In this document: positions 1,008 to 36,956 of the stretch, piece by piece
How positions within the stretch are numbered: position 1 is the stretch's first letter
Layout: each line of letters opens with the position of its first letter
Virus record (IMG/VR): IMGVR_UViG_3300042924_003329
Location: 1-36,956 of that record
Reading direction: 5' to 3' (one strand)
Length of the DNA: 36,956 nt
Source of the DNA: a virus
Notes under the pieces: generated by a model
The model's database searches: none
The model's input: only the letters and a program-made list of their open reading frames with translations
Told to the model about the DNA's origin: nothing
Position numbers and translations under genes: made by a program

Positions 1008-1877
1008 CTACAACTCGACTCCGCTTAGCGCACGCTTCTCGGCAGCTGCCGACGCACGCTCAGCCTCTTCCTCTGCCGTACCGCACTTTGCCATGTCGGT
1101 TCGGTAATAGCACACGATTGAGATGCGTTCCGCTTCATCATCGTGCAGCTGCATAAGCGTATTCCCATGCCACTGGTGTGCGTCCATAAGCAGCACGTCA
1201 CCGTCCTGCATATCGAATCCGACTCGGTACTCAGGGAAGGTAAAGATACCACCAGAGTAATCGCCTCGGCGCAAGCAGGTGAGATTTGAGAATCCTTCTT
1301 CTAGGTCGCCACTGTCAGTGTGAACTCCTGTCGGGTACGTATTGTTCACGGTGATGGTGGTGAATGGTGTATTCGGCACCACCCAGTCAGGTTTAGTTTC
1401 TAGCACCTTGCGCATCTGCACATCGTATCGGTCAGGCACGTACTGCCTGAACAGATCACCGATGCGTTGAAACAGCGGCAGCAGACCTTCCCACTGCTGC
1501 GTTTCCTTGCCTGTCCATGCCGTTAGTCGGCAGTACATACGCGGCATCTTGGCATCGAACGAACCAATGATCGCCGAAGCAACTGCCTTAGCCGAACTGC
1601 GCTTGCTTCCTTCGCGTGCTACGCGTACCGTTCCGCTCGCGAGCCCACGATTGTTCGTCTCATATGACTTCAGCGAATGCAGCGTATCGTAATACGAAGC
1701 AAGCACATCAGATGGGATCGCTTTAGGTCGGTACACTGCAAGCAGTTTGCCCTCGGGAGAATAAATACGAGCTGGTCCAGTGACCAACACATTGTAGTCA
1801 TCTTCCGTCAGGATCTTCCCTTTCTTTTCTTCAAGTTCCTCTGGCGAGATTCTTGTGCGAACACGGATATCGATCAT
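1008..1877 (-). CDS. TET/JBP-family 2-oxoglutarate/Fe(II) dioxygenase (DNA base oxidation)
   Basis: The 289-residue protein has the core of the TET/JBP nucleic-acid dioxygenases. It has the iron ligands H186 and D188 (G-V-H-T-D-S-G-D), a G-x-F-x-F-P-E-Y-R strand at 210-218, the distal histidine in H-G-N (H237) after L-L-M-D-A-H, and the 2-oxoglutarate-binding arginine R251 in R-I-S-I-V. A Y-C-R-L-T-A-W strand lies upstream at 115-121. Family members oxidise the methyl group of 5-methylcytosine or thymine in DNA. The start ATGA overlaps the stop of the TET-associated glycosyltransferase gene, so the two are translationally coupled and probably act in sequence: hydroxymethyl base, then sugar. 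The substrate base cannot be read from the sequence. I see no C5-cytosine methyltransferase in this genome. Confidence 0.85.
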   Translation of the reverse strand: MIDIRVRTRISPEELEEKKGKILTEDDYNVLVTGPARIYSPEGKLLAVYRPKAIPSDVLASYYDTLHSLKSYETNNRGLASGTVRVAREGSKRSSAKAVASAIIGSFDAKMPRMYCRLTAWTGKETQQWEGLLPLFQRIGDLFRQYVPDRYDVQMRKVLETKPDWVVPNTPFTTITVNNTYPTGVHTDSGDLEEGFSNLTCLRRGDYSGGIFTFPEYRVGFDMQDGDVLLMDAHQWHGNTLMQLHDDEAERISIVCYYRTDMAKCGTAEEEAERASAAAEKRALSGVEL

Positions 1878-2803
1878 TTGAACAGACCTTCCTTTTCTGC
1901 TTCCATTTCTTCTTCGACTTTGCGGATCATTTCGACCCAGCGGTCAAGCGTCACGTCCGTGACCGAAACCGAAAGATCCGCACCTGCCATTATACCTGAT
2001 TCTTTGATACGAAAGAATCCAGGATAAATCCGCATCAGCGTTTCGCAATCGGGAGCTCGGAACGGCAGCCGCTCCTCAGCGGTACCAAGACCACCCTCGA
2101 TGTACGTACTATGCTCGAAGAATCCAAAGTTGTTTAGTACAACCGAACCGAATACCTTGCACACTTCGGCAGAGTTCCGATAGTCTTCCATCGGAATGTT
2201 CTCGTCCCACTTGAAGCGCGAATCTTTTCGCATGATGATAAGGTGACCAGACACGTAGCCGACCCTTCGCCAGTGCTTCAGCCTGAAGAAGTAATTGTCT
2301 ACTACGGCGAACCCACCCATGATCGTATCCTGCGCGTTCATCCTTGCAAGGGTAGAGAAGAATAGTTCACGCCACCGCTTTGCATCGATTTCCGTCTTGA
2401 ACTCTCGCGAGATCGGTGCAAGCATGCGCTCGTCCACTGGCAGCACGACATTTTCGATGCCGTCATACGCTTTAGGCGCAGCGGAGCAGAACTTAATATC
2501 GTCGTCCGCGAATACTACCACTTCGCCTTCATCGAGCTGCTCCCATACCCACTGCATTTGCCTAACCTTGCCAGATCCAGGATACCCTGCGCGCACACCG
2601 CTAACGAACAGCTGTGCTTTGCCGCAGTCCTGAATCAGTTCATACGCATCTTTCGCTTCCTCGTCGTGAACCACCAGCACTTGCGTCATTTCATCGAACG
2701 CTGGCTGCTTTAGCGTTGACACACGCCCAGCCCTGTCGTACGACACAACGACCAATAGCGGCAGCTCCGCATCCGCGCTCCGCGGAATCACACGCTCAGC
2801 CAT
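1874..2803 (-). CDS. TET-associated glycosyltransferase (TAGT-type, GT-A fold)
   Basis: The start chosen is ATG 2803, seven bases after AAGGAG; the longer upstream reading runs through composite repeat copy A. The product has 309 residues. It opens with the beta strand L-L-V-V-V-S-Y-D-R of a GT-A nucleotide-sugar domain and has the metal-binding D-D-D triad at 100-102 (V-V-V-F-A-D-D-D-I-K-F). A G-G-F-A-V-V-D-N-Y segment and a G-H-L-I-I-M strand typical of the acceptor half follow. Family and neighbours match the phage TAGT enzymes known to sit beside TET/JBP dioxygenases and thought to glycosylate the oxidised base. The acceptor here is inferred from the coupled dioxygenase gene. Confidence 0.8.
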   Translation of the reverse strand: MAERVIPRSADAELPLLVVVSYDRAGRVSTLKQPAFDEMTQVLVVHDEEAKDAYELIQDCGKAQLFVSGVRAGYPGSGKVRQMQWVWEQLDEGEVVVFADDDIKFCSAAPKAYDGIENVVLPVDERMLAPISREFKTEIDAKRWRELFFSTLARMNAQDTIMGGFAVVDNYFFRLKHWRRVGYVSGHLIIMRKDSRFKWDENIPMEDYRNSAEVCKVFGSVVLNNFGFFEHSTYIEGGLGTAEERLPFRAPDCETLMRIYPGFFRIKESGIMAGADLSVSVTDVTLDRWVEMIRKVEEEMEAEKEGLFK

Positions 2804-2822
2804 GACGTTCCTCCTTGGAATA

Positions 2823-2880
2823 GCCCATGTATAACCGCACAGGGCTAGTCCTCTGTATTGGCAGGGGCAGGTGCCCCTGC
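2823..2880 (-). repeat. Composite repeat copy A (palindrome, 13-base spacer, CTAG, second hairpin)
   Basis: The palindrome CAGGGGCAGGTGCCCCTG occupies 2862-2879, CTAG is at 2845-2848 exactly 13 bases away, and the second-hairpin core is at 2823-2844 (degenerate, GCCC...GGGC). On the minus strand the order is palindrome, CTAG, hairpin, AAGGAGG and the TAGT start codon. The palindrome encodes the A-P-A-P-A C-terminus of the ParB-like protein, and CTAG supplies its TAG stop. Confidence 0.85.
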
Positions 2881-3597
2881 TGTATTGCCTTCGCTCTGCG
2901 ATGTGCCGATGCCGAGATGTTCCTCGGTATACGCAACGCACGCGAAGATGATTCCCAGAATGCTGCTCTCGCCTAGTTTGGCGCCAACAGTCTTCAATCG
3001 CTTAACGAAGGCAGCGTGCTCATCTGCTTTAATCAGCAGCGGCACTTCCTTCATCGCTGAACGGCTAGCACCAGAGTTATCCGTTGCGCGATTGACATGC
3101 TCCAGTCGTGCGCGCAGCTCCTCCTCTGTTTCGGCGTAGCCTCCCTTGAACTCCTCGTATGGCATAGTGACGGCAGCTGGATCCTGCGCTAGCAAGTCCT
3201 CGTACTCGTCAATAGTCCACAGCGTATCGAACAATCCTGGACCATCCGATAGCAGCGTGAGCGCATCCTTCAGTTTCTCGGTATCGTACGCCGACAGGTC
3301 GCTCGCCTTATTATCAGCGAGCAGGAATCCCATAGCGGTATGGTCGTCCACGTCCACGTAGTTCACCGCAATAGTTTCCCAACCCAGTGCGGAAGCAGCA
3401 CTCCACGTACCATTTCCCGCAATGATGTAGCCTGTCTTGGTTTGAACCACGATCGGCTTCATCTGACCGTACTTCTGAAGCGAACGCTGGATCGCTTCGA
3501 TCTTGTGCTTCCTGATATTCTTAGGGTGCGCTTTGACCGACATGATATCGACCGCCATACCCTGCAACGATGGTGCTATAACTGCTTCGTACTTCAT
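2845..3597 (-). CDS. ParB/Srx-fold nuclease-domain protein
   Basis: This 250-residue protein has an N-terminal ParB-type domain. Residues 23-50 read H-P-K-N-I-R-K-H...I-Q-R-S-L-Q-K-Y-G-Q-x-K-P-I-V-V, followed by G-Y-I-I-A-G-N-G-T-W-S-A-A at 57-69, the variant box II, and L-L-A-D-N-K-A-S-D. No clear helix-turn-helix follows; the C-terminal half is unassigned. Such stand-alone ParB domains occur in phages beside DNA-modification genes, and here it sits directly upstream of the glycosyltransferase and dioxygenase. It may be a nuclease, an NTP-binding accessory or a DNA-targeting factor for the modification enzymes. The last residues are dictated by the composite repeat. Confidence 0.75.
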   Translation of the reverse strand: MKYEAVIAPSLQGMAVDIMSVKAHPKNIRKHKIEAIQRSLQKYGQMKPIVVQTKTGYIIAGNGTWSAASALGWETIAVNYVDVDDHTAMGFLLADNKASDLSAYDTEKLKDALTLLSDGPGLFDTLWTIDEYEDLLAQDPAAVTMPYEEFKGGYAETEEELRARLEHVNRATDNSGASRSAMKEVPLLIKADEHAAFVKRLKTVGAKLGESSILGIIFACVAYTEEHLGIGTSQSEGNTAGAPAPANTED

Positions 3598-3609: not shown

Positions 3610-4398
3610 TCAGAATGGCAACTCTTCGCCGACTTCATCCGAAGTAAACTTCGGCGGATCAATCGGAAGGTCAATCAGATGTTCAGCCCTTCGCTCCTCC
3701 TTAATCGGATTAGCAGCCAGCCACTTCAGGGATGGCTTATTCCTGCACCAGCCGTTCGCATCCTTCGCTCCGCAAGTATAGAATGCCGCGTACGGCTTAC
3801 CTGCTTTGCTAGTCCCAGCTGGCTTCAATGTCCACGCAACATCATGCTCTGGGCAGTTGCCCTCAGCAACATTCGAAGCGAAACTCATCGCTGCCTTAAG
3901 GATTTGCGCATCGTCGGAACGCGAATCGAACACGCTTCCGTCAACTGGCGCGGGTGGCGCGTACCTGTTTTCACGCACGCTGTTCACTGACTTAGGCGGC
4001 AATGCTGCACGCGGAGCTGGCTCTCCCATGTAGAGATACCGCGCTACGCCGAACAGAGAAGCAGCCCTGCGCAGCGCGTCGGAAGATGCTTCTTTCAACG
4101 ATTCGCCTGAGCCTCCTGTTTCGTATCCGAAATCCATTCGCGTTGCTGACCGACCGTCAGGGAAATGAATCGTCAAAGTGGCGGCAACAGTGTTGCTTTC
4201 ACCGACAGGATGCACGTAGAAATCCCATCCCGCAATACCGAGAACCTGATCCAGCCGCTGCGCGACTGCGCGAGCAGGAACCCACTTCAACTTGAAGCCG
4301 CCATGCCCGACGCGCTCACGCACCAGCTCTGGTGCGAATGGCGCTTCCAATGCTGCGAGAACCGCAGCGTTCGTTTCGTTCTTGTTCGTTCCGTCCAT
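3610..4398 (-). CDS. Rad52-type single-strand annealing protein
   Basis: The 262-residue protein matches the Rad52/22 annealing family in its first 125 residues: L-K-W-V-P-A-R-A-V-A-Q-R-L-D-x-V-L-G near 37-54, then W-D-F, a beta hairpin and the helix E-S-L-K-E-A-S-S-D-A-L-R-R-A-A near 99-113, and F-G-V-A-R-Y-L-Y. A Cys/His cluster (C-P-E-H, Y-T-C, G-W-C) in the C-terminal third looks zinc-binding. The acidic tail ends in E-E-L-P-F, like the SSB C-terminal tip. Next to the YqaJ exonuclease it forms a two-component recombination system. AAGGAGG and composite repeat copy B precede the start. Confidence 0.85.
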   Translation of the reverse strand: MDGTNKNETNAAVLAALEAPFAPELVRERVGHGGFKLKWVPARAVAQRLDQVLGIAGWDFYVHPVGESNTVAATLTIHFPDGRSATRMDFGYETGGSGESLKEASSDALRRAASLFGVARYLYMGEPAPRAALPPKSVNSVRENRYAPPAPVDGSVFDSRSDDAQILKAAMSFASNVAEGNCPEHDVAWTLKPAGTSKAGKPYAAFYTCGAKDANGWCRNKPSLKWLAANPIKEERRAEHLIDLPIDPPKFTSDEVGEELPF

Positions 4399-4413
4399 TG
4401 CTATTCCTCCTTG

Positions 4414-4475
4414 CAGTTAGCCGTGTCTAACGGCACTGCGCTAGTCCTGTATGCAAACAGGGGCAGGTGCCCCTG
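4414..4475 (-). repeat. Composite repeat copy B
   Basis: The perfect 18-bp palindrome is at 4458-4475, a 13-base spacer follows, CTAG is at 4441-4444, and the second hairpin GCCGT-gtcta-ACGGC is at 4420-4434, extended by CAGT/ACTG flanks. On the minus strand it lies just past the exonuclease stop and ends at the AAGGAGG of the Rad52-type gene. Confidence 0.9.
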
Positions 4476-4476
4476 C

Positions 4477-5436
4477 CTATTCGCCTTCGTTCTGTACCTT
4501 GAATCGGAATACGCGCGAACCAGCCTTCTCTTCAGTATGCTTTTTCAATAGCTCCTCGTAGGTGGCTGGATCCCACACGCGCACATAATCGGCTACCTCC
4601 AGCCAGTCTGTCTTGAGCGATGGCTTGTTCTGTTTCCACGTAGCCTGCCATCCACGACCCATAATGCCAACCTTGCTTCCAATCATTTCCTTCAACGCCA
4701 TCGAGATATCCTGCATCTTTTCGCTTGCGAGCCGTTCCTCCTCCGATGCTTCACGGTATTCTATTGCGAGTCGATCCGCTGCCGAATCAGCCAACTCCCA
4801 TTCCTCGCTTTGCTGCGGGTGCAGCTGCGCGAAGTAATCGGAATCGGATCCCGCAACAGCTGGCGCACGACCAGACTTCACGCGCTCCATGAAGTCCTGC
4901 GCCTTACGGAACATCTCCAACTGATACTGGTTCGACGCTTCAACTCGCTCGACGCGGAAGGTTAGCCCTCCGAGTAGTGCAGCTACGTCAACCCAAGGCG
5001 CTCCCGTGATCATCATTTGCCACTGCACTTGCGCCACCACTTCAGGAGGAACAGGATACAGCGACCAACGCGGAGATGAACTCGTCTTGATTTCGAGCAG
5101 TCCGTCTGTTCCGACAATCGTTCGGTCGAGTGATGCCATTGCCCATGGGTATTTCCGCATGCGCACAACACCATTCGACACACGAACCTTCACGCCTTTC
5201 TCCTGCTCGTACCACTTCGCTACCGAATCCTCAAGCAGCACGCCACGATTTGCAGCCGCACCCAGTTTGGGTGGCTGAACATCGCCGCGCTTCTCTGCCC
5301 AGAGTTGGTACGGTGTCTTGTACGGAGAGATGCCCAGAACGGCAGGAATGTCGCTAGCGCCCAGCCCTTCCTTGCGCAGTTTCAGCCACTCCTCGCTGCG
5401 CTGCTCTGCTTTGATGAACTCGTACTGCTTTGGCAT
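4477..5436 (-). CDS. YqaJ/lambda-exonuclease-like recombination nuclease
   Basis: The start at ATG 5436 overlaps the stop of the small gene upstream (TGATG). The 319-residue protein has the YqaJ pattern: R-x-x-E-W-L-K-L-R near 13-21, G-L-G-A-S-D-I-P-A-V-L-G-I-S-P-Y near 24-39, E-D at 69-70, D104, and the catalytic L-L-E-I-K-T-S with E115 and K117. Q-V-Q-W-Q-M-M follows near 136-142. It would degrade one strand of dsDNA ends 5'-3' and hand the single strand to the adjacent Rad52-type protein. A Glu-rich helix near 240-265 could contact a partner. Confidence 0.88.
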   Translation of the reverse strand: MPKQYEFIKAEQRSEEWLKLRKEGLGASDIPAVLGISPYKTPYQLWAEKRGDVQPPKLGAAANRGVLLEDSVAKWYEQEKGVKVRVSNGVVRMRKYPWAMASLDRTIVGTDGLLEIKTSSSPRWSLYPVPPEVVAQVQWQMMITGAPWVDVAALLGGLTFRVERVEASNQYQLEMFRKAQDFMERVKSGRAPAVAGSDSDYFAQLHPQQSEEWELADSAADRLAIEYREASEEERLASEKMQDISMALKEMIGSKVGIMGRGWQATWKQNKPSLKTDWLEVADYVRVWDPATYEELLKKHTEEKAGSRVFRFKVQNEGE

Positions 5437-5680: not shown

Positions 5681-5701
5681 GATCGTTCCTCCTTGCATTC
5701 A

Positions 5702-5757
5702 GCCGTGTATAACGGCACTAGACTAGTCGGCAGGTATGGCAGGGGCAACCTCCCCTG
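5702..5757 (-). repeat. Composite repeat copy C
   Basis: The 18-base arm CAGGGGCAACCTCCCCTG is at 5740-5757 and still pairs because both arms changed together (GGCAGGGG/CCCCTGCC). The spacer is 13 bases, CTAG is at 5723-5726, and hairpin GCCGT-gtata-ACGGC is at 5702-5716. CTAG again supplies the stop codon of the upstream gene, and AAGGAGG follows immediately. Confidence 0.9.
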
Positions 5758-5953
5758 CCATATGCCGCTTCGTTGTGTTACGGCGCAGACCTTCTGACTG
5801 CGCTTCTGTGAAGAATGCCGCAGCTCCGCTGACGTCATGCTCTTGGCTCGAGCAGTAGTACTTCCCTGACTGCTCGATCCAATACATAGCGCCATGCCCT
5901 TGCGGGCAGAACGCCAGCTGCTTTCCGCTAGCGGAGCTGCGGACTTTCTTCAT
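5723..5953 (-). CDS. Small Cys/His protein, 76 aa
   Basis: Unrecognised. The peptide has a possible zinc site (F-C-P-Q-G-H near 15-20, Y-Y-C-S-S-Q-E-H near 32-39) and a basic middle. Its C-terminal A-G-E-V-A-P-A-I-P-A-D is encoded by composite repeat copy C. It overlaps the stop of the preceding zinc-ribbon gene by four bases. It belongs to a run of small Cys-rich accessory proteins between the recombination genes and 9.6 kb. Confidence 0.6.
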   Translation of the reverse strand: MKKVRSSASGKQLAFCPQGHGAMYWIEQSGKYYCSSQEHDVSGAAAFFTEAQSEGLRRNTTKRHMAGEVAPAIPAD

Positions 5954-7605: not shown

Positions 7606-7620
7606 CGACCCAGCGGGTCG
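7606..7620 (-). other. Leader hairpin of the HELSH gene
   Basis: CGACCC-agc-GGGTCG forms a six-pair stem between the 7639-7666 promoter and the AGGAGG of the downstream gene. It fits the pattern of a stem-loop near the start of transcripts from this promoter family. Confidence 0.5.
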
Positions 7621-7638: not shown

Positions 7639-7666
7639 ATTATGCCTGATCTGCTGTATAAAGCAA
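7639..7666 (-). promoter_or_regulatory. Promoter P1 (TTGCTT-16-CATAAT)
   Basis: On the minus strand a -35-like TTGCTT (7661-7666) and a -10-like CATAAT (7639-7644) are 16 bases apart. The inverted repeat TGCT-N6-AGCA overlaps the -35 and spacer. The site lies in the last codons of the upstream glycosylase-like gene and faces the HELSH gene. Confidence 0.65.
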
Positions 7667-8187: not shown

Positions 8188-8412
8188 TCAGCAATCATAG
8201 CCGTCGTCTGACGGCATTATGCCTGATCGCTTGCCATTAAGCAAGTGATTCTTGTACGTGCTGGCAAAGCAATGCTCGATAGCGTCCATCACTGCGATTG
8301 TACGAAGCGAGCGCCGAACCTTGTATCCGCAAGTGCATTCCGCTTCATATCCGCTAATCGCTCCTGCTTCACTTGGCTGAGTATCTTCGACCTGCTTGAT
8401 TTCGTGTAACAT
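8188..8412 (-). CDS. Small Cys-rich protein, 74 aa
   Basis: ATG 8412 follows AGGAGGACTAGT. The middle reads E-C-T-C-G-Y-K-V-R-R-S near 25-35, with a further cysteine at 48 (E-H-C-F-A), and looks like a small zinc-binding or beta-ribbon protein found in many phages. The last 15 residues are encoded by promoter P2 and its hairpin, so their sequence may reflect DNA-level constraint. No function is recognised. Confidence 0.6.
   Translation of the reverse strand: MLHEIKQVEDTQPSEAGAISGYEAECTCGYKVRRSLRTIAVMDAIEHCFASTYKNHLLNGKRSGIMPSDDGYDC
8200..8215 (-). other. Leader hairpin downstream of promoter P2
   Basis: GCCGTC-agac-GACGGC on the minus strand directly follows the CATAAT of P2, so it would lie at the very 5' end of the transcript, before the AGGAGG of the glycosylase-like gene. 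Confidence 0.6.
8216..8245 (-). promoter_or_regulatory. Promoter P2 (TTGCTT-17-CATAAT) with inverted repeat
   Basis: TTGCTT (8239-8244) and CATAAT (8216-8221) are 17 bases apart on the minus strand. The inverted repeat CTTGC-N6-GCAAG covers 8230-8245. It drives the pyrimidine-dimer-glycosylase-like gene from inside the 3' end of the preceding gene. Confidence 0.7.
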
Positions 8413-8429
8413 ACTAGTCCTCCTGTTGG

Positions 8430-8498
8430 CAGGGAACAATGCCCCTAGCCACATACATAGCTAGCCCAGTGCCGTTAGATACGGTCACTTTCGAGCTC
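8430..8498 (+). repeat. Composite repeat copy D (plus orientation)
   Basis: The degenerate 18-base arm is at 8430-8447, then exactly 13 bases, CTAG at 8461-8464, the hairpin GTG-CCGT-tagat-ACGG-t-CAC, and the tail CTTTCGAGCTC. The copy faces opposite to all genes, between the genes ending at 8485 and starting at 8412. It therefore cannot work there only as a leader RNA of the downstream gene. Confidence 0.85.
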
Positions 8499-9062: not shown

Positions 9063-9120
9063 TTTCGTCCTCCTCTTGCGCCAGCTGGTCGAATGACCCG
9101 CTTCCTCAGCGCCTGAGTCA

Positions 9121-9149
9121 ATCATGCATCGAAGGTTGTACAAAAGCAA
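9121..9149 (-). promoter_or_regulatory. Promoter P5 (TTGCTT-17-CATGAT)
   Basis: TTGCTT (9144-9149) and CATGAT (9121-9126) are 17 bases apart on the minus strand, matching the other phage promoters. The inverted repeat GGTTG-N8-CAACC overlaps the -35. A short hairpin CTCAG-gcg-CTGAG follows the -10. It faces the small-protein genes starting at 9062. Confidence 0.55.
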
Positions 9150-9227: not shown

Positions 9228-9283
9228 CCCATACAGGACGGCACTGGGCTAGGGTTGTACGATGGCAAGGGCAGGTGCCCCTG
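9228..9283 (-). repeat. Composite repeat copy E
   Basis: The 18-base arm CAAGGGCAGGTGCCCCTG is at 9266-9283, 13 bases follow, CTAG is at 9249-9252, and CCCAGTGCCGTCCTGTATGGG (minus strand) is at 9228-9248. The tail continues into the GATCGAGCTCGA palindrome, as in copies D, F and G. Confidence 0.85.
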
Positions 9284-9622: not shown

Positions 9623-10640
9623 GTCGTACCAGATATTCTGCCGTCACGCCATCCTTGCCGAAAAACAGACACCACTGCGCTGGCGTGCCACTAGCAGCCA
9701 GCCATTCCTGCGCATATCTGTTGCCGCTCTCAATAGAAGGAGAGCCCCAGATAGTATGCGAGCCGTCTGACATCACAAGACGCGCTGGCGTGTGCCAGTG
9801 TCCATAGAATAGGAAGTCGAATGGTGCGACACTGAGATTCCAACCCTGAGCGCGCTTAGCAATAGCGTAGTACGGCAATCCGAATGCGCCTCCGCGGAAC
9901 TGATCGCCGTGAACTAGGAATGCCTTGCCGCTTGGCAGATCATCCGTTTCATACCAGTGTCGTGCGCCTAGCGTGAATGCTTCGCGCCAATCAACACGCG
10001 GCTCGCGAACTAGGTCGCGAGCTACGCGATATGTTATCGCATCTGCATTGCTCTCAGGCGAGTGATCACCGTAGCGACCGAGTCGCCCATGATTTCCAAT
10101 AACATTGCGCACCCGCACCTTCGGAGCAAGCGCCGCCATCTTGCGTACGAAGTCTGCGAGGATCTGCGCCGCTTCGAAGATTTGGACATACAGACCACCA
10201 GACTCCACTTCATACGACTGCGAAGGGAAGATGTTGCCGTCGGACTCGACGATATCGCCTAGCACGTAGATTGCGATCTCTTCAACAGGGTGATCCTGTC
10301 GCTGAATCGCAATCAGCCGTTCAACCTTCTGAGCTAGCAACTCAATACGCTTGCGCGCAATGTCAATACTATACTCACCCGCTCGCGTAGCTCCGAGCTG
10401 CCAGTCGGACAGCACTACCACGCATGTTTCAGCGGATCCCTTGCGCTTGTCTGCTTTTGGCGCAGGAACTGGCGGAATCTTGATAATCGCAGCGGCATCT
10501 CGTGCCGCACGATAGACAGCATCCACCAGCTCCTGCTCGTTGATAGTTTTCTTTGAAAGAGCACGTAGCGCACGATTATGCGCAGCGCGCAGCTCTTCGT
10601 ATGCAGCTGCTTCGGTCAGTGACTTCTCAAGATCACTCAT
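9591..10640 (-). CDS. Calcineurin-like metallophosphoesterase
   Basis: This 349-residue protein has the full metallophosphoesterase motif series: L-S-D-W-Q-L-G near 77-83, L-G-D-I-V-E-S-D-G near 127-135, N-V-I-G-N-H-G-R near 188, V-H-G-D near 245 and Y-G-H-W-H near 285. An N-terminal helical extension of about 70 residues precedes the domain. The substrate may be DNA or a nucleotide: SbcD/Mre11-like and cyclic phosphodiesterase roles both fit. The start overlaps the stop of the HTH protein. Confidence 0.85.
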   Translation of the reverse strand: MSDLEKSLTEAAAYEELRAAHNRALRALSKKTINEQELVDAVYRAARDAAAIIKIPPVPAPKADKRKGSAETCVVVLSDWQLGATRAGEYSIDIARKRIELLAQKVERLIAIQRQDHPVEEIAIYVLGDIVESDGNIFPSQSYEVESGGLYVQIFEAAQILADFVRKMAALAPKVRVRNVIGNHGRLGRYGDHSPESNADAITYRVARDLVREPRVDWREAFTLGARHWYETDDLPSGKAFLVHGDQFRGGAFGLPYYAIAKRAQGWNLSVAPFDFLFYGHWHTPARLVMSDGSHTIWGSPSIESGNRYAQEWLAASGTPAQWCLFFGKDGVTAEYLVRLEDIKRTDKK

Positions 10641-10878
10641 GATTGCACATGCACGCTCGGCGATGATGTCGCGCGAGAGTTCCTTCTGCGATGCGCACTC
10701 CGTACGTGGATTCTATTACTTCACTGAGCATTCTCTTTGAAACTGCTGGATCCCTGAGCGCGGAGAGAAATACGTCGCGGTCTTCACCTTTGATTGTTGA
10801 AAGTAAGATACCCACTCCGCATGGCGTACCTTTATTTTTCTTCCGTGCAGCAACCAGTGCTGCCTCGAGTTTCGACAT
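10633..10878 (-). CDS. Small HTH DNA-binding protein, 81 aa
   Basis: ATG 10878 follows GGAGGCATC. The sequence P-C-G-V-G-I-L-L, then L-R-D-P-A-V-S-K-R-M-L-S-E-V-I...V-R-I-A-E-G-T-L-A-R-H-H-R-R-A-C-M-C fits a small family of phage helix-turn-helix proteins. Their C-terminal recognition helix ends in R-H-H-R-R-x-C-x-C. It could be the regulator of a promoter or repeat family in this genome; no target can be assigned from sequence. Confidence 0.65.
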   Translation of the reverse strand: MSKLEAALVAARKKNKGTPCGVGILLSTIKGEDRDVFLSALRDPAVSKRMLSEVIESTYGVRIAEGTLARHHRRACMCNHE

Positions 10879-24611: not shown

Positions 24612-25844
24612 TTATTTCTTGTGCTTGGCTGCCCTGCGCTGCTCTCGGTTTAGCGCGGTAGCGGATCCGCTAGTGACGCGCTGTTCGAGCTCTTTCAGAA
24701 TAGGATGCCAGTGTTCTGCGTATACTTTCGTAGTGGTGTATCCAGCCGCGAACGTCACCGCAGCCTCCGATGCCGCCTTAGCCTGTTCAGTTGACTTCAT
24801 TTCGTATGATTCCTCGAGCGCCGCGATGATGCGCTTAACTTCCGGAACCATCCACCAGCCAGTCTGCATTTCGTCCCATTCTGGCTGCCCATCGACTTTC
24901 CATCCGGATCCGACTAGCTCAGGCTGCGCAGTCCAGTTTGTGACGATCACAGGAGTGCCGCATGCCTGTGCTTCGATAGCTGGCACGCCGAATCCCTCGC
25001 CACGCGAAGTCATCAGTAGTACGTCCGCTGCTGTGTATAGTCGAGCCAATACTTCAGACGGCAGCCCTTGCCTAAACTCGAACTGCGGCACGATACGCAC
25101 GCGATCTGCTGGCGCATCAACTGCCTGAAGCAGTCGCTCCAGTTTGACGCCATTCGCCAGACCGAAGAAGTCGGTGTGAAGATAGAGATATGCGTTCGGC
25201 TTCGACTTCGCGAAGGTTGACCACGCGAGCAGCATTTCAGGGAAACACTTGCGGATAGGCGTGATGCCCTTATTCGCGGAGTTGATCATCGTGAGGTGCG
25301 CATCCTCCGGAATGTTTAGATCCTTTCGAATCTCGCTTTCCGTTGGCTTGAAGATATTGTCATTGAAAGAATGCGGAGCGTAGAATAGATTCTCGCGAGA
25401 GATGCCAGCCTTCAGCATTTCATGCTCGCCGAATCGGCTCATCGCGATCGCCCACTTGCCCTTGCCCTTGCGGTCGAACCACGCCTTGACTTCGGCTGGA
25501 ACAACGCTATGATCGATCGGAGTCCAAGAAGCAATCGGAATCTCGTCCCATTGCGGAGACTTGTATACCCACACATCGTAGAGCGTGATGCCGAGTCCAG
25601 GAACCTGCGGATCCTGCGCCATCCACCATGCCATCTGCGCTGGCGTTAGGTCGTTGCTGTATGCGTCCATCCCTTGCTGCATAACGGGAACGCCATTCCA
25701 CTCAAGCGTGGTTCCAGCCAACCCGTAATTAGCCATGATGGCAACCTTGTGTCCGTCGGCTACCAGCCTAGGTACAATCTCCTGTGTCTGCATTCCGTAT
25801 CCCGTAGGCGACCATGGAGCATTCGAAGTCCAACCAATACGCAT
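24612..25844 (-). CDS. GT4-type glycosyltransferase (GT-B fold), 410 aa
   Basis: The N-terminal half starts M-R-I-G-W-T-S-N-A-P-W-S-P-T-G-Y-G, a GT-B acceptor domain. The C-terminal donor domain shows A-D-V-L-L-M-T-S-R-G-E-G-F-G-V-P-A-I-E-A-Q-A-C-G-T-P-V, the E-x7-E signature of family 4. The protein ends in a basic tail (N-R-E-Q-R-R-A-A-K-H-K-K). It sits between major capsid and connectors with its own promoter P4 and leader hairpin, so it is expressed apart from its structural neighbours. It could glycosylate capsid proteins or the modified DNA. Confidence 0.85.
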   Translation of the reverse strand: MRIGWTSNAPWSPTGYGMQTQEIVPRLVADGHKVAIMANYGLAGTTLEWNGVPVMQQGMDAYSNDLTPAQMAWWMAQDPQVPGLGITLYDVWVYKSPQWDEIPIASWTPIDHSVVPAEVKAWFDRKGKGKWAIAMSRFGEHEMLKAGISRENLFYAPHSFNDNIFKPTESEIRKDLNIPEDAHLTMINSANKGITPIRKCFPEMLLAWSTFAKSKPNAYLYLHTDFFGLANGVKLERLLQAVDAPADRVRIVPQFEFRQGLPSEVLARLYTAADVLLMTSRGEGFGVPAIEAQACGTPVIVTNWTAQPELVGSGWKVDGQPEWDEMQTGWWMVPEVKRIIAALEESYEMKSTEQAKAASEAAVTFAAGYTTTKVYAEHWHPILKELEQRVTSGSATALNREQRRAAKHKK

Positions 25845-25856
25845 ATTTGCCTCCCT

Positions 25857-25874
25857 TGACCGAAGAGTCGGTCA
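25857..25874 (-). other. Leader hairpin downstream of promoter P4
   Basis: TGACCGA-ctct-TCGGTCA on the minus strand forms a seven-pair stem overlapping the last base of the -10 and ending just before GGGAGG of the glycosyltransferase gene. Confidence 0.6.
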
Positions 25875-25902
25875 GCATGCCTCGAACCTGCTTATAAAGC
25901 AA
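25874..25902 (-). promoter_or_regulatory. Promoter P4 (TTGCTT-17-CATGCT) with inverted repeat
   Basis: TTGCTT (25897-25902) and CATGCT (25874-25879) are 17 bases apart on the minus strand. The inverted repeat TGCTT-N3-AAGCA covers 25889-25901. It faces the GT4 glycosyltransferase. Confidence 0.65.
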
Positions 25903-25908
25903 GCACCA

Positions 25909-25981
25909 TTTCGAGCTCGAAAGAGCCCGTATCCAGACGCACTGGACTAGCGTTAGAGATATCTGAACGCGAGTGCCCCTG
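25909..25981 (-). repeat. Composite repeat copy F (left arm degraded)
   Basis: CTAG (25947-25950), the 13-base spacer and the 18-base block (25964-25981) keep their distances, but the far arm no longer pairs; instead the block shares bases with the capsid-gene hairpin. The second-hairpin core CCAGTGCGTCTGGATACGG and the TTTCGAGCTCGAAA tail are present. It lies between the capsid hairpin and promoter P4. Confidence 0.8.
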
Positions 25982-26008
25982 CCGCCAGACCGAAGTCTAG
26001 CGGCAGGG
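25977..26008 (-). terminator. Strong UUCG-loop hairpin after the capsid gene
   Basis: CCCTGCCGCTAGAC-ttcg-GTCTGGCGGCAGGG forms a 14-position stem with one G-U pair and a UUCG loop, 27 bases past the capsid stop. No T tract follows, so it may act as a partial terminator, an RNA stabiliser or an expression-level control for the very abundant capsid mRNA. Confidence 0.6.
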
Positions 26009-26034
26009 AGCAACTCTACCCTAGTTAGCTAGGA

Positions 26035-27216
26035 TCAGGTGTTGGCGGAAACCAACACGCGCTGAGCCGTCAGATCTGGCAGGTTTCCATCGAGCGCGTA
26101 TAGCGTTCGGATGGCAATCTGCGCAGCGTTGAAGGCGTACTCGCTTGAGGACGCGACTTCAATCGGCAGCTCGCGGATGTAATAGGACGGAGCGTGAATG
26201 ATCGCAACGGACTTCGACGCAGAAGCGACGGCAGCCATGTGAACATTCTCAACTACGCGGTAGCCGAGCAGCGTATCAGGCTGACCAGCTGCAAGTCCAG
26301 GAACCCAGACTGGCATGCCGTTCGTGTCCTGCATCTTCCGAACCTTCGAAAGAGCAGCACTCGAGAGCTGCCACTGCGTGTTGGCGTTTCGGTAATCCGG
26401 ACCGAGAGCGTAGAGCAACGTCACGAGGTCAAGGCTATCGAAGAAGGTGGACGCAACCGTACCAGCCTTCGTAGCGGTCGACAACTGTGCGTTGGTCGCT
26501 GCGGTGATGAATCCCGTCGGCTGGACAGTACCAGTACCGAGGGTGCATGCCGAACCAGCGAGGAAAGCGATGCTGCGACCCGCAGCCTCACCGACCACTC
26601 GCGTGATATCGAAGCCTGCATCGCGAACCAACTCATTGCTGAGAAGAGTCATCGAGGCAATCTTGTTTGCATACAGCGTGATGCTGCTGATCGTTGGATC
26701 AGCAGGCGAGATGGTCGAACCTTCGCTGACGAAAGTGGTCGCCTGATTCGCCGTCACTCGCGGAACAGTGATGTTCTCGCCAGTGGTTGTGCGGATCTTG
26801 GTGGCACCTTCGTAAACTGGGTTGCCCTGCGAAAGCGCAACGACAACGAAGTCTGCGAACGTCACGGGAACAGTCGCTGAGCCGCTAGCCAGTGCACGAA
26901 TCTCAAACTTACCTGAGCGCTTCTCGCCAGTGGCGATTGCTCGGAGTACGTCTGCATCGTTGTCTGCCTTAACGGACTTCTCGACCTTGAGTGCGCGTTC
27001 AGCGAGTGCGCCGATCTTCTCGGAGCGATCCTCAGCCTCTGCGACCTGATCGATCTTGGTTTTCTTTGACGACATCGAGGTGTTCAACGCATCCCAGCGC
27101 TGCTCCTCCTCTGCGGTCAATTCGCGCTTCTCATCAGCTGCTCGAGCGAGAAGTGACTTAGCCTCTTCCCAATCGTTGCGGTACTGACTATAGAGCGCCT
27201 GAGTTACTTCAGACAT
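26035..27216 (-). CDS. Major capsid protein, HK97 fold
   Basis: The first 100 residues are a charged helical delta domain (E-E-A-K-S-L-L-A-R-A-A-D-E-K-R-E-L-T-A-E-E). After that comes the HK97-type coat: I-R-T-T-T-G-E-N-I-T-V-P-R near 142-154, F-V-S-E-G-S-T-I-S-P near 163-172, R-S-I-A-F-L-A-G-S near 214-222, and the C-terminal A-F-N-A-A-Q-I-A-I-R-T-L. The protease gene lies directly upstream in transcription order. The delta domain is probably removed by that protease near residue 100-110. Confidence 0.9.
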   Translation of the reverse strand: MSEVTQALYSQYRNDWEEAKSLLARAADEKRELTAEEEQRWDALNTSMSSKKTKIDQVAEAEDRSEKIGALAERALKVEKSVKADNDADVLRAIATGEKRSGKFEIRALASGSATVPVTFADFVVVALSQGNPVYEGATKIRTTTGENITVPRVTANQATTFVSEGSTISPADPTISSITLYANKIASMTLLSNELVRDAGFDITRVVGEAAGRSIAFLAGSACTLGTGTVQPTGFITAATNAQLSTATKAGTVASTFFDSLDLVTLLYALGPDYRNANTQWQLSSAALSKVRKMQDTNGMPVWVPGLAAGQPDTLLGYRVVENVHMAAVASASKSVAIIHAPSYYIRELPIEVASSSEYAFNAAQIAIRTLYALDGNLPDLTAQRVLVSANT

Positions 27217-27294: not shown

Positions 27295-28791
27295 CTAGCG
27301 ATTCGGTTGCTTCATTTCCAACTTAGCAAGCGCTAGTTGGCGTTCTCGCACAGAGAACGGAACCGCACGAATCGCTTCGTCCGATCCTGTTTCCTGCGTG
27401 ACTTCGACAACCACTTTAGGGCTGTCAACATCATCATTTTCACGCAGATCTGGCGCGACCTTGCGGATCGCGAGATCTAGTGTTTCTGCTGCTTCCGCAT
27501 CCGGAGCCCCAGCAAGCAGCGTGTCGAATGCGCGCATAAGTTTCTGCGCATCGATCTCAGTGCGCTGCGAGAGCGCACGAACAGCGCCTAGTCCTACCGT
27601 AGCAGGGTAGGCTGGCTCGTGTCCTGTAAGCAGGCTCACTTCGTGCAGTCGCACATTCGTCAGCTCGCGCACTCCGTCGTCGTTGTATCCGTCACCCTTG
27701 GACGGAACGCTGAAGCCGAAGGACATACCCATCGCAGCTCCGTCGCGTCGCAGCATAGCAGCGAGGTCGGATGCGAACGTCACCTCCGGATTCAGGGATA
27801 CGCGAACCTTAAGTCCGCGATCATCTTCCTGAAGCGAGAGCGTGCCAGTCTTGGTTGATCCGAGGAAGTACTTAGGATCGTGATCCTGAAGTGCCTTCAC
27901 TTCCCATTCTCCCCTGTTAGCAGCAGCAACAGACTTGCTGAATGCTCCAGGACGGATCACTTCGCGGAATGCTAGACCTTCGGACTCAGCGTCGAAGATA
28001 GCGGCATATCCTTCGAAGGTATGTCCGTCGCCTTCCTGCCGAATCTCGGTATGGAACTGCCGATACTCGATAGCCATATTCTTGTTCTCCTTGCGTTCTG
28101 CGTTGTCAGAGATATTCTCTGCCCATCGCTTACCTTCGTCTCCTCCCCACAGTGCCCATGCGATTCTACCATTGCTAGGATATCCATCCTCGCCTTGGCT
28201 GAATCCCTCAGCCTGCTTGTCGACTTCATGTCGCGCGAAGAAACTTACCATTCGTTGTACTGTTTCGAATGGCAGATTTTTGCCATTCACGATATCGCGT
28301 GCTCGAGCAATACCTATTTCAGTGCCGCCGCGACCGAACTCGCTGCGCCAGTCGAGTCCGCGCTGGGCTTCTGCTTTCATGCCAGAAGTAGGAGAATATC
28401 CATCAGGATTAATCGGAGCGCGCTCTTCCTGATCGTCGTCCTCGTCGTCGTCATCGTCCTCGCGCGGCTGCCAAGCGTTGCAGTAATACGCGCCGCTGAC
28501 ATAATCGTCCCAGCGCTCGCACCACGCCTTGTCGCCCTGAATATCGTCTTCGTTGTAGAAGGCGCAGTTGCCGCAGGCGCGACCTTCAGGCACATCCTCG
28601 GCGAGTGCGGGTCGGTAGTTATCTGGCAGTGCGCGCTCGCCTCCTGGTTCGATTTCCTCTGCGAGTGAGAGCGCGACCATTTGGTCGATCGCGTCCTGCT
28701 TGCTGCTGTGGCAGCCTAGCACTTCGCCGTCGCCTTTAATCGTAGCCCAACCTTCGCATCCCTCTGCCGAGTCAGTGATATAGTATGGCAT
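27295..28791 (-). CDS. Prohead protease with N-terminal multidomain extension, 498 aa
   Basis: Residues from about 239 on form the HK97/S78 protease: F-E-G-Y-A-A-I-F-D-A-E-S, A-L-Q-D-H-D with the catalytic histidine, G-M-S-F-G-F with the serine, and L-H-E-V-S-L-L. Three extra units precede it. They are a short repeat-like domain (1-45), a four-cysteine unit (C73, C76, C91, C104; N-C-A-F-Y, A-W-C-E-R-W, Y-Y-C-N-A-W) like high-potential iron-sulfur motifs, and a helical unit (W-R-S-E-F-G-R-G-G...A-W-A-L-W-G-G-D). A second start (ATG 28077 behind AAGGAG) could make the protease alone. Confidence 0.8.
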   Translation of the reverse strand: MPYYITDSAEGCEGWATIKGDGEVLGCHSSKQDAIDQMVALSLAEEIEPGGERALPDNYRPALAEDVPEGRACGNCAFYNEDDIQGDKAWCERWDDYVSGAYYCNAWQPREDDDDDEDDDQEERAPINPDGYSPTSGMKAEAQRGLDWRSEFGRGGTEIGIARARDIVNGKNLPFETVQRMVSFFARHEVDKQAEGFSQGEDGYPSNGRIAWALWGGDEGKRWAENISDNAERKENKNMAIEYRQFHTEIRQEGDGHTFEGYAAIFDAESEGLAFREVIRPGAFSKSVAAANRGEWEVKALQDHDPKYFLGSTKTGTLSLQEDDRGLKVRVSLNPEVTFASDLAAMLRRDGAAMGMSFGFSVPSKGDGYNDDGVRELTNVRLHEVSLLTGHEPAYPATVGLGAVRALSQRTEIDAQKLMRAFDTLLAGAPDAEAAETLDLAIRKVAPDLRENDDVDSPKVVVEVTQETGSDEAIRAVPFSVRERQLALAKLEMKQPNR

Positions 28792-32605: not shown

Positions 32606-32914
32606 TCAGTGTTGTGTTATTTTGCCGTGACAGCTGCGACAAAGAACACGTAGTTGAGATAGTGGCACAATCAGTTCGCCACCTCGCGATAGCGGAACAA
32701 TATGGTCTGCCGTGAGATCTTCGATCGCACCGCACATCTCGCAATATGGTCGCTCGTCACGTACTTGTTTAGATAGTTTGCGCCACGCAGGATCAGCATA
32801 TGGTTTACGTATGCCAGCGTTGCGTTCACGTTGCACTTCCAGTCGGCAGTCATGGCACCTATTGCCATCCTTCGTTCTCATTCCGCAACTAAGACAAGGT
32901 CGAGAGAATCTCAT
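32606..32914 (-). CDS. HNH endonuclease, 102 aa
   Basis: The N-terminus has a zinc ribbon (C7, C10, C20, C23). The nuclease part shows C58-E-x-C61, the D-H pair at 70-71 (T-A-D-H-I-V-P-L-S-R-G-G), and C-R-S-C-H-G-K at the end. HNH proteins beside terminase genes take part in cos cleavage and packaging. The start overlaps the zincin stop (ATGA). Confidence 0.9.
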   Translation of the reverse strand: MRFSRPCLSCGMRTKDGNRCHDCRLEVQRERNAGIRKPYADPAWRKLSKQVRDERPYCEMCGAIEDLTADHIVPLSRGGELIVPLSQLRVLCRSCHGKITQH

Positions 32915-33333
32915 GTCGATCTTATAGTCTTAGTAGTACGAAGCACACGCTTGCGATACTTGCGGTAGTAAGCGGACTGTCCTTTGCCGTAGTTCAGTGC
33001 GATGCTGCGATCAGCGCGCTTACGAACTTCAACAGGCAAGTACTTCTCGTGATACGATAGTAGCAGCTCTGCCCAAGCACGCGTATGCGGCTGGTCAGTG
33101 CCGAGATGGGCTAACTCATGTAGTATTGTGATGCGATCGACAGCACCACAGAAGGTGATGCGCTTCTCATCAAAGTCAGTTTCAGCATCGAAACAGTCGG
33201 GTCGGTGGTAAGGGTGGAAGTCTACCTTCAGCACTTCAATCTCTTCCCTTTTGGCGACACGCTTAAGGAATGCCAGCATCTGCATGCATTTTTCTTTGCG
33301 CGCAGGACTCACGTGTTCCCAATCTATTTCCAT
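32911..33333 (-). CDS. SprT/zincin-like metalloprotein, 140 aa
   Basis: The start at ATG 33333 is chosen for the length and the overlap with the membrane reading frame upstream. I-T-I-L-H-E-L-A-H near 68-76 is the zinc motif (H72, E73, H76), with H83 (D-Q-P-H-T) as a likely third ligand. The C-terminus is strongly basic (Y-R-K-Y-R-K-R-V-L-R-T-T-K). SprT-like proteases act on DNA-protein crosslinks; other roles are possible. It is the first clear protein of the late block. Confidence 0.7.
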   Translation of the reverse strand: MEIDWEHVSPARKEKCMQMLAFLKRVAKREEIEVLKVDFHPYHRPDCFDAETDFDEKRITFCGAVDRITILHELAHLGTDQPHTRAWAELLLSYHEKYLPVEVRKRADRSIALNYGKGQSAYYRKYRKRVLRTTKTIRST

Positions 33334-33539
33334 GTTACCACCAATGAGAGCGCGATGAGGACGCCAATGCCGAACGCGCATATAGCCGTTGTTGAGACAG
33401 GTATCCTCATCGCAGATGTAGTGCTGGTCGAGCGAGAGGAATCGCTCGACCAGCGTGAAGTAGCAATGCGGGAGGACTCACCGCATGCCACAGCAGATAG
33501 TTTGGGTGCGTTATTCAACACACACAACACACGCATCAT
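33324..33539 (-). CDS. Possible small membrane protein, 71 aa
   Basis: The frame begins at ATG 33539, overlapping the stop of the HTH/Cys protein (ATGA), and ends inside the start of the zincin gene. The first 43 residues are Ser/Arg-rich and unusual. The last 25 form one membrane helix (T-A-I-C-A-F-G-I-G-V-L-I-A-L-S-L-V-V). A 13-bp hairpin lies within it. The Ser-rich half has no clear coding feel, so a shorter product from an internal ATG or no product at all remains possible. Confidence 0.4.
   Translation of the reverse strand: MMRVLCVLNNAPKLSAVACGESSRIATSRWSSDSSRSTSTTSAMRIPVSTTAICAFGIGVLIALSLVVTWK
33423..33454. repeat. Perfect 13-bp inverted repeat (hairpin) in the late leader
   Basis: GCTGGTCGAGCGA-gaggaa-TCGCTCGACCAGC is perfect over 13 pairs with a six-base loop. 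It lies between promoter P3 and the first late genes. No T run follows on either strand, so it is not a standard terminator; an operator or an antitermination/processing element fits better. Confidence 0.75.
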
Positions 33540-34138
33540 TCAGACCGATCTGGCGTGCCGAGTCTTCTAGGTCGACGGTAATTATGCCTCATTTGCTTTG
33601 AATAAGCAATCCCCAACGCGCCATGTTGCGGTTCATTCTTGTAGTACCTAGCAACTCGTACAAGTGCCAACAGCAGCAACTGCTTTGCCCTCTCTTGGGA
33701 GATGTTCAGATCTCTTTCCATCCCTCGTATGCCCATCGTTGCACCCTGTTGAGAGCAGATGAGGAGAATCTCCGTGAACATCATGCCGCGTTCGCCCTGT
33801 GCTAGCTTAGCGAGCGCACGACGCATCGGATGTCGGTATCGTACAGTTGGCTTGCGATACTTGCCAGATGATGTTAGCACAGCACCATTAGCATCACGGA
33901 TACCGCACAACTCACATCTTCCTGGATCAGGCTGGTTCTCATGCCTGCATGGTACATCATCATACCGATACTCTATTGCCTCAGGTGACCAGAATAGATA
34001 CTCCTTGAAGGCAGCCGTCCAATCAGGTCGCCCATCGCCACCGAATACTTTCGAACTGTGCAGCTGCATCGGCACAGGATCCTGCTTCTCGATGTACCAG
34101 TCAAGCAGCTCCTTGATGTTTCGGTCGATGTTACTCAT
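33536..34138 (-). CDS. HTH/Cys protein upstream of the late genes (candidate late regulator), 200 aa
   Basis: The second half shows a sigma-region-4-like helix-turn-helix near 137-165 (I-R-G-M-E-R-D-L-N-I-S-Q-E-R-A-K-Q-L-L-L-L-A-L-V-R). Earlier there is a possible zinc knuckle (C-R-H, then C-E-L-C near 63-78). The protein ends in a basic tail encoded by promoter P3. Position and fold recall phage late regulators such as RinA/ArpU that sit just before terminase genes. The role is inferred. Confidence 0.55.
   Translation of the reverse strand: MSNIDRNIKELLDWYIEKQDPVPMQLHSSKVFGGDGRPDWTAAFKEYLFWSPEAIEYRYDDVPCRHENQPDPGRCELCGIRDANGAVLTSSGKYRKPTVRYRHPMRRALAKLAQGERGMMFTEILLICSQQGATMGIRGMERDLNISQERAKQLLLLALVRVARYYKNEPQHGALGIAYSKQMRHNYRRPRRLGTPDRSE
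33581..33610 (-). promoter_or_regulatory. Promoter P3 (TTGCTT-17-CATAAT), late-gene promoter
   Basis: TTGCTT (33604-33609) and CATAAT (33581-33586) are 17 bases apart on the minus strand. The best inverted repeat of the set, TTGCTT-N5-AAGCAA, lies at 33593-33609. It stands in the 3' end of the HTH/Cys gene and faces the terminase and head genes. Confidence 0.7.
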
Positions 34139-34529
34139 AGCGCTTAGTCTCCAGTTTCACGAATTCGTACGGTGAGAATGGGCGCAGCTCGCAGGTGCGG
34201 TATCGGCACGCGACATCGTGACCGACGCAGACCTTACAGAACTTATCGACAGCTGCCTGCATCTTAATCATATACGAGAGTTTGCCCTGAATCGCATCCG
34301 CACCGTCAGTGAGATTCCGCACTTGCTCGAGGTCTGTTGAAGACACAAGGCAGCGATCGTAGTAGCGCATCTTCAGCCATGACGAAGTCACGCCGATGCG
34401 ATGTGCATTCTCGAATAGCTGGTTCAGCGAGATCTTGCGATATCGAGCTAGCTGTTTGCAAGCAGCAACGAACTGCTGGTGGTGTTCGATGTCTGCCCTT
34501 GTCCTATTCTTCACACGATTAGTCTTCAT
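34131..34529 (-). CDS. Small HTH/zinc-type protein, 132 aa
   Basis: The basic N-terminus and helical middle (I-S-L-N-Q-L-F-E-N-A-H-R-I-G-V-T-S-S-W-L-K-M-R) look like a helix-turn-helix. The C-terminus holds C-K-V-C...C-R-Y-R-T-C near 98-112, a likely zinc knuckle. It overlaps genes on both sides, and with the next gene may form a regulatory pair. No family is recognised. Confidence 0.5.
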   Translation of the reverse strand: MKTNRVKNRTRADIEHHQQFVAACKQLARYRKISLNQLFENAHRIGVTSSWLKMRYYDRCLVSSTDLEQVRNLTDGADAIQGKLSYMIKMQAAVDKFCKVCVGHDVACRYRTCELRPFSPYEFVKLETKRYE

Positions 34530-36766: not shown

Positions 36767-36956
36767 TCGACCTCCTCGACTATCATTTCTTCATCCATAG
36801 GCAGGGGCACCTGCCCCTGCTGTACTGTCAGACTATCCATGTGCGGCTGGATAGCCACGCTTTCGAGCTCAGACACGAGAACCGAGGGCAACGGACGATT
36901 GCGAAGGTGATATAGGAATGCCACGTATTGCCGCTCCGACATCGGAATCATCTCCG
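36763..36956 (-). CDS. PD-(D/E)XK-like nuclease, 3' part (continues from base 526 across the join)
   Basis: This is the C-terminal third of the gene that starts at 526. Its stop overlaps the kinase start (ATGA at 36763-36766). The last 25 residues (L-T-V-Q-Q-G-Q-V-P-L-P-M-D-E-E) are encoded by composite repeat copy G. The amino acid sequence is identical to the copy at the left end despite two base changes. Confidence 0.75.
   Translation of the reverse strand, partial: EMIPMSERQYVAFLYHLRNRPLPSVLVSELESVAIQPHMDSLTVQQGQVPLPMDEEMIVEEVE
36783..36956. repeat. Terminal direct repeat, right copy
   Basis: This is the match of 1-174, with g at 36804 and c at 36829 instead of a at 22 and a at 47. Both changed bases lie in composite repeat copy G. 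Confidence 0.9.
36802..36870 (+). repeat. Composite repeat copy G (plus orientation, inside a gene)
   Basis: Palindrome CAGGGGCACCTGCCCCTG at 36802-36819, 13 bases, CTAT (for CTAG) at 36833-36836, the hairpin core CATGTGCGGCTGGATAGCCACGC and the TTTCGAGCTC tail lie within the coding end of the nuclease gene. The same copy is seen at 20-88 in the left terminal repeat, with one palindrome mismatch. Confidence 0.75.

Follow-up and report, generated by a model that had tools for sequence, protein, structure and literature searches.

Families of near-identical promoters are already known in phages, an example being the repeated motifs that we measured in phiC31. This phage, a distant relative of the one described here (terminase 38%), carries at least 8-10 near-identical copies of each of two dispersed motifs, which we take to be its early promoters and its CIR repressor sites. 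In cluster K mycobacteriophages, the SAS and extended SAS are dispersed and tied to start codons, about half of them come with imperfect inverted repeats at variable spacing, and their function is unknown (PMC3203893). T4-type phages carry mobile cassettes termed PeSL (promoter early stem-loop), as far as these are described in PMC4503421, which cites Arbiol 2010 and Comeau 2014. Finally, GafA carries a DUF6456 annotation (PMC9765227) and has a Caulobacter homolog, GafZ. This anti-terminator, which contains a sigma-like helix-turn-helix, is loaded where a palindrome separates the -35 and -10 elements of a late promoter, and a 229-nt untranslated leader follows (PMC11150451).

The window analyzed here (positions 1-36,956 of IMG/VR record IMGVR_UViG_3300042924_003329) is an entire 36.96-kb viral contig, derived from a phage of freshwater origin with a small genome. 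Because its ends form a 174-nt direct terminal repeat with two mismatches, the contig is probably a complete genome. Essentially all genes lie on the minus strand, and the order of transcription round the circle is exonuclease, small genes, and recombination/TET block, then the genes at 33-36 kb, then the terminase block. The succession of terminase, portal, protease, capsid, and glycosyltransferase genes is the same in Pontimonas phage phiPsal1. An actinobacterial host is likely, because the closest named terminase is that of phiPsal1 (46%), followed by those of phiC31-group Streptomyces phages. No DNA match was found in named phages for the first 25 kb of the window or for the dispersed repeat, P3 leader, and P4 intergenic region described below; no Rfam family was matched and no tRNA was found.

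Five minus-strand sites, all on the coding strand, fit the pattern TTGCTT-N16/17-CATNNT. These are P1 (TTGCTTTATACAGCAGATCAGGCATAAT, 7639-7666), with a 16-bp spacer, and P2 (TTGCTTAATGGCAAGCGATCAGGCATAAT, 8216-8244), P3 (TTGCTTATTCAAAGCAAATGAGGCATAAT, 33581-33609), P4 (TTGCTTTATAAGCAGGTTCGAGGCATGCT, 25874-25902), and P5 (TTGCTTTTGTACAACCTTCGATGCATGAT, 9121-9149), each with a 17-bp spacer. They lie at most one base from where the original prediction had placed them (P2 ends at 8244 and P3 at 33609) and, as it had also claimed, P1, P2, and P3 are contained in the 3' codons of upstream genes. By chance, 0.24 such sites would be expected on both strands, and none of 100 dinucleotide shuffles of the window reached five. 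The pattern was picked after the sites had been seen, and independent support from gene-start position, the P3 ortholog, and a weight-matrix scan therefore matters. In a position-weight scan that included the ortholog from relative L009, P1-P5 scored 24-29 and the next independent site scored 12, which is the control level. All five have the elements of a sigma-70-type promoter (-35 TTGNNN, -10 NANNNT, 16-18 bp between them) above chance, and four are found 29-58 nt upstream of an ATG with a strong AGGAGG- or GGGAGG-type ribosome-binding site. P1 serves the gene starting at 7586 (272 aa, HExxH-like), P2 the pyrimidine-dimer glycosylase gene starting at 8167, P4 the GT4 gene starting at 25844, and P5, located after the exonuclease gene, the genes from 9062. 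The proposals that P4 serves GT4 and that P1, P2, and P5 serve early or accessory genes are thus supported. A general promoter scan of the window gave no excess, because the -35 elements of P1-P5 are too far from TTGACA for detection. Taken as predicted phage promoters, P1-P5 are well supported. The TAA stop of the upstream pyrimidine-dimer glycosylase gene (7640-7642) is part of the P1 -10 element (GCATAAT).

A freer motif search yielded two more minus-strand candidates. P6 (TTCTTTCGTATCAAAGAATCAGGTATAAT, 1989-2017) is probably a further family member, with a perfect TATAAT and an 8-bp repeat (GATTCTTT-6-AAAGAATC); the TET/JBP gene begins 111 nt further on, at 1877. P7 (TTGCTGAGGGCAACTGCCCAGAGCATGAT, 3841-3869), perhaps a seventh, lies inside an Erf-like gene and 243 nt before a ParB-like gene. 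Positions 1008-3597 encode in succession a TET/JBP dioxygenase (E 2e-25), a weak match to TET-associated glycosyltransferases, and a ParB-like protein, likely a DNA hypermodification block with P6 before its TET gene. The core of the family is TTGCTT, 16-17 bp, and (C/T)ATNNT, with AGG or GAGG usually just before the -10 element. Within the spacers, P4 and P5 have TTCGAnGCATG in common, whereas P1, P2, and P6 share ATCAGG, and these shared letters fit common descent in each group.

In a database scan, the correct pattern gave 68 matches and a chance control with a spacer two bases longer gave 56. More than one copy among the 68 was found only in the near-identical strains of the window and in one unrelated phage (two contigs). 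This 46-kb phage (G001/G002) has five TTGCYT-N16/17-AGGCATAAT copies on one strand, all without the inverted repeat discussed below, and the four with a clear start are located about 26-35 nt before the ATG. These copies, of the form TTGCYT-N16/17-YAGGCATAAT, are those of contigs L291, L293, and L308 (IMGVR_UViG_3300038315_001610, 3300037195_001941), unrelated phages of 46 kb and 30 kb; the ATGs behind the four with a clear start have no evident Shine-Dalgarno sequence, but a CCCCC run. In these phages we also saw a gene resembling a 5-hmdU kinase and a weak match to TAGT. When bacterial genomes were scanned for the core motif, no host lineage was enriched among the matches listed. P1, P2, and P5 are conserved in near-identical strains only, and their conservation thus says little.

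Between its capsid and GT4 genes, the window has a stretch of about 120 nt (25857-25976, minus strand) that contains P4 and is shared by seven near relatives. This segment is absent from L185 (GT4 81% identical) and L187 (69%), where the capsid-gene hairpin is directly followed by the GT4 ribosome-binding site; in phiPsal1, only 69 nt separate the capsid gene from the gene at the GT4 position. The segment comprises a copy of a dispersed repeat (c5), the promoter, and a stem-loop, in the order GGCAGGG hairpin arm, c5, P4, 6-bp stem-loop, ribosome-binding site. The GGCAGGG arm, which forms the upstream junction, belongs to the hairpin after the major capsid gene (CCCTGCCGC...GCGGCAGGG, approximately 25977-26010, minus strand), and this microhomology is all that marks the junction. 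The P5 region is organized in the same order, with repeat copy c4.

Seven copies of the dispersed repeat were identified, in both orientations, with a GGCAGGGGCACCTGCCCCTGCC hairpin followed by CTAGYCCAGTGCCGTTAGATACGG and, in some copies, TTTCGAGCTCGA. On the minus strand, c1 (2808-2898), c2 (4404-4494), and c3 (5686-5776) directly precede ribosome-binding sites, and c4 (9228-9283) and c5 (25913-25977) lie upstream of P5 and P4, respectively. On the opposite, plus strand are c7 (8428-8498) and c6 (36797-36870), the latter also at 15-88, the same place in the terminal repeat. The repeat was found in the window phage and near-identical strains only, and in none of the other relatives searched with a repeat model. 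Each of the four short 5' UTRs also contains a minus-strand stem-loop (combined p 1.4e-4). It follows the -10 element directly at P2 (GCCGTC-AGAC-GACGGC, 8200-8215, 6-bp stem) and P4 (GACCGA-CTCT-TCGGTC, 25858-25873, 6-bp stem), as it does at P5 (CTCAG-GCG-CTGAG, 9105-9117, 5-bp stem), and comes 18 nt after P1 (CGACCC-GCT-GGGTCG, 7606-7620). The promoter followed directly by a stem-loop, as in PeSL, is therefore seen at P2, P4, and P5, and presence or absence between relatives at one intergenic place is seen at P4, the one site compared. Among 37 other start codons, 10 likewise have a perfect stem of 5 bp or more before them, and 5' stem-loops are thus no hallmark of these promoters.

For P4 at least, the insertion of a promoter-bearing cassette is a better explanation than one coupling regulator. 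At the level of sequence, this cassette reading is demonstrated for P4 alone, and it probably extends to P5, which has a similar make-up. We infer that the change at P4 was a gain; a loss in L185 and L187 is possible, although phiPsal1 is also without the segment. The copying and insertion of promoter units would be the simplest reading of the dispersed repeat, the segment, and the shared spacer letters. In phiPsal1 itself (L450), two 100-nt start-associated copies (26379-26478 and 27694-27793) are 79% identical, with the last half identical up to the ATG, and it is possible that this stretch is also a promoter cassette.

P5 stands where relatives widely keep a promoter of their own: 63 of the 73 contigs with a related exonuclease and enough downstream sequence (35 distinct sequences; L049-L120) have a strong, sigma-70-type TTGAC-N17-19-TANNNT promoter 60-720 nt downstream of it, to which P5 corresponds in the window. 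These promoters are mostly of the TTGACGG-N7-CCGTTA type, with a hyphenated dyad over the -35, and the site looks like a conserved early promoter with an operator. Other dyads found in the search across relatives were mostly coding coincidences. The expectation that the motif would be kept before the same genes in relatives thus held in part: P3 is retained with divergence in L009/L017, whereas L185/L187 lack P4, and most of the exonuclease relatives have another consensus promoter in place of P5.

The promoters were also predicted to carry an inverted repeat over the -35 and spacer, and this is supported, although the arm of P1 is only 4 bp long (TGCT-6-AGCA) and the repeat of P5 is of a different sequence (GGTTG-8-CAACC, 5 bp). 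The arms are TTGCTT-5-AAGCAA in P3 (6 bp), TGCTT-3-AAGCA in P4 (5 bp), and CTTGC-6-GCAAG in P2 (5 bp). Tested one by one against shuffled spacers, the repeats gave p values of 0.25 (P1), 0.09 (P2), 0.03 (P3), 0.03 (P4), and 0.02 (P5), which combine to 9e-4. Repeats with arms of 4 bp or longer occur at five of five family -35 elements and at 22% of all TTGC on the same strand; at 5 bp or more, the figures are four of five and 9.5%. Given the combined p and the excess of arms of 5 bp or more, the repeat overlapping the -35 is probably a genuine feature. It is an addition and not part of the basic promoter, because the unrelated phage has five copies of the core without it.

The original prediction held that a common regulator could couple early, GT4, and late expression, and a single phage or host regulator binding the -35 repeat at all five sites, switching these units together like the phiC31 CIRs, is a rather unlikely reading. 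It would account for the excess of repeats over background and their combined p, for dyad centers that all lie 6.5-9 nt from where the -35 begins, for the 8-bp repeat of different sequence in P6, for the dyad over the -35 of the post-exonuclease promoter in relatives, and for a sigma-4-like helix-turn-helix in the protein encoded at 33536-34138. However, equal half-sites at a fixed spacing in every copy, as in a phiC31 CIR-like dimeric operator, were not found. The loops vary from 3 to 8 nt and the half-site spacing from 5 to 9 nt or more, the dyad center shifts by 1.5 nt among P1-P5, and the arms of P5 and P6 are of other sequence, all of which is unlike a rigid dimer operator. In addition, the repeat at P3 of L009 is no longer than 4 bp and differently spaced (p 0.21), and no repressor or integrase gene was recognized among the proteins searched. 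Of the two regulator candidates proposed, the 10633-10878 protein had no family match. The idea gained support at P3 alone, because the gene at 33536-34138, which adjoins this promoter, encodes a sigma-region-4-like domain directly before it. One coupled regulon over all five sites is possible but unproven.

Equally, one could argue that the promoters resemble each other only through a host sigma consensus and that the repeats arise by chance from TTGC and AT-rich spacers, with neither shared regulation nor a cassette origin. The five repeat-free copies of the core in the unrelated phage and the modest single p values agree with this reading, yet the combined p value, the spacer bases common to P1/P2/P6 and to P4/P5, and the insertion of the P4 segment together with a dispersed repeat make it rather doubtful.

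P3 is where the promoter family meets a candidate regulator. It lies over the end of a 200-aa gene (33536-34138, minus strand) whose product has a sigma-region-4-like helix-turn-helix at its C-terminus and is a candidate for a late regulator or an anti-terminator. The match of this protein to DUF6456 (18.4 bits versus a curated cut-off of 26.3; E 2.4e-3 in the Pfam scan, 3.6e-5 within its own genome) is weak and covers only the end of the profile, and it is missing in the homologs from L013, L052, and L062. Structural neighbors of the protein were sigma region 4 (Z 5.9 and 5.2) and Q21 (Z 5.4 to 4.6), and Z values near 5 are not discriminating; when a distant homolog was modeled as well, Q21 was not among its neighbors and the best Z was 3.8. 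The 33536 protein did not match Phage_antitermQ (PF06530), the lambda-Q-type family being covered by the general Pfam scan, and had no match in named phages or, by sequence, in solved structures. The small gene that precedes it (34131-34529) appears helix-turn-helix-like by eye and has no family match. A palindrome between the -35 and -10 of a late promoter, as in Q/GafZ-type systems, is present in P3 (TTGCTT-5-AAGCAA, overlapping the -35) and weak in L009 (4 bp). The anatomy of the P3 module closely parallels that of the GafZ system, without establishing membership.

As predicted, P3 faces the late block. Its ortholog in the 87% relative L009/L017 (L009:887, TTGCTC-N17-CATACT) is identical at 10 of 12 hexamer and 6 of 17 spacer positions and has the same 17-bp spacing. 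Since L009 does not conserve the ORF that comes immediately after P3 (33324-33539), we re-set the first gene behind the promoter to about 33333, the start suggested by conservation with L009. This gene (32911-33333, minus strand, HExxH motif) is followed by HNH, TerS, TerL, portal, and other late genes. The resulting leader extends 247 nt from the -10 to the next ATG (33334-33580, minus strand) and contains several strong hairpins, such as GCTGGTCGAGCGA-TTCCTC-TCGCTCGACCAGC. Compared with shuffled sequence, its fold has a z of -4.1 in the window and -3.9 in L009. In the two-sequence consensus of 70 pairs, 62 are unchanged, 3 compensatory, 5 one-sided, and none broken, and substitutions affect 11 of 140 paired versus 27 of 123 unpaired columns. 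The leader is thus conserved as a structure in the window and L009. The AAGACTCGGCA sequence, from the stretch after the P3 -10 (33540-33580), recurs in the leader of L052, which is not more stable than shuffled sequence.

The same region could instead be a cos or packaging recognition site, conserved as DNA near the terminase genes, with P3 an ordinary promoter beside it. Such sites are common upstream of HNH/TerS/TerL genes, which is where 33334-33580 lies, and L009 shows no change in the 38-39 nt directly after the P3 -10 (within 33540-33580), not even where the overlapping gene would allow synonymous ones. However, the compensatory and wobble-type changes without a broken pair favor an RNA structure. 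Moreover, L013/L015 have at the same place another promoter (TTGTAA-N17-TATAAT), which carries a repeat of its own, and behind it about 240 nt of structured leader, all of unrelated sequence. We therefore consider the cos reading unlikely.

On balance, we think it more probable than not that the window carries a sigma-70-type promoter family, partly spread by cassette copying, in which P3 was reused as a late promoter under Q/GafZ-like control. P1-P5, and very likely P6, would each open a separate transcription unit, with the core presumably read by the host RNA polymerase and its main sigma factor. P4, and probably P5, would reside in an intergenic cassette of dispersed repeat, promoter, 5' stem-loop, and ribosome-binding site that recombined into place in a PeSL-like manner and so gave an accessory gene its own promoter. 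P3, with its position in the last codons of a sigma-region-4-like gene, the cleanest repeat, and a 247-nt structured leader, would have been put to a second use: the 33536 protein may load at its repeat and allow polymerase to pass the leader and the late-operon hairpins, in a Q/GafZ-like anti-termination. It seems very unlikely that this protein loads at the repeats of all family members, making terminator-resistant units that include cassette-gained accessory genes, which would amount to a Q/GafZ-type anti-termination regulon that, in a phage of a probable actinobacterial host, grew by one gene after another as mobile promoter cassettes were inserted. That the elements are not promoters and act as RNA, with two hairpins around AGGCATAATG in read-through transcripts serving, for instance, processing or translation, is the least credible reading, because what P3 of L009 has retained is the pair of hexamers at 17-bp spacing and not the hairpin, and the core occurs without an upstream hairpin in the unrelated phage, even though P2, P4, and P5 have a hairpin on both sides of the conserved core.

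Lake metagenomes are rich in uncultured freshwater phages of this type, and our analysis supplies concrete candidate start sites, a gene whose promoter would have come with an inserted cassette, and a candidate module for late control made of a regulator gene, a palindromic promoter, and a structured leader. Most of what is interesting here lies in the P4 cassette and the P3 late module, which go beyond what had been noticed before.

Compared with the systems described above, the P4 cassette is most reminiscent of PeSL: both are intergenic units of a sigma-70-type promoter and a stem-loop, present in several copies and inserted before accessory genes. Unlike PeSL, the unit described here resides in a small siphophage-type genome, has other sequences and an extra dispersed repeat before the promoter, and its insertion was seen at one site. 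Like phiC31, the window phage has a family of near-identical dispersed motifs; the sequence is different, and phiC31 has two separate motifs and an annotated sigma factor (gp12), whereas the window has one promoter with an inbuilt repeat and no homolog of gp12 was found in it. The window repeats are also tied to start codons, as are SAS, which copies c1-c3 resemble more than the promoters do; SAS differ in having a core without promoter hexamers and in the location of the 13-bp SAS at the ribosome-binding site (PMC3203893). Finally, the candidate P3 module shares with GafZ/ZBE and the phage Q binding elements a sigma-like helix-turn-helix, a palindrome between the late -35 and -10, a leader of about 230 nt, and late capsid genes (PMC11150451). 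It differs from GafZ/ZBE (PMC11150451) in that the homology of the 33536 protein is below the curated cut-off and the probable host is actinobacterial. If it works like Q or GafZ, this mode of late control would extend to phages of probable actinobacterial hosts.
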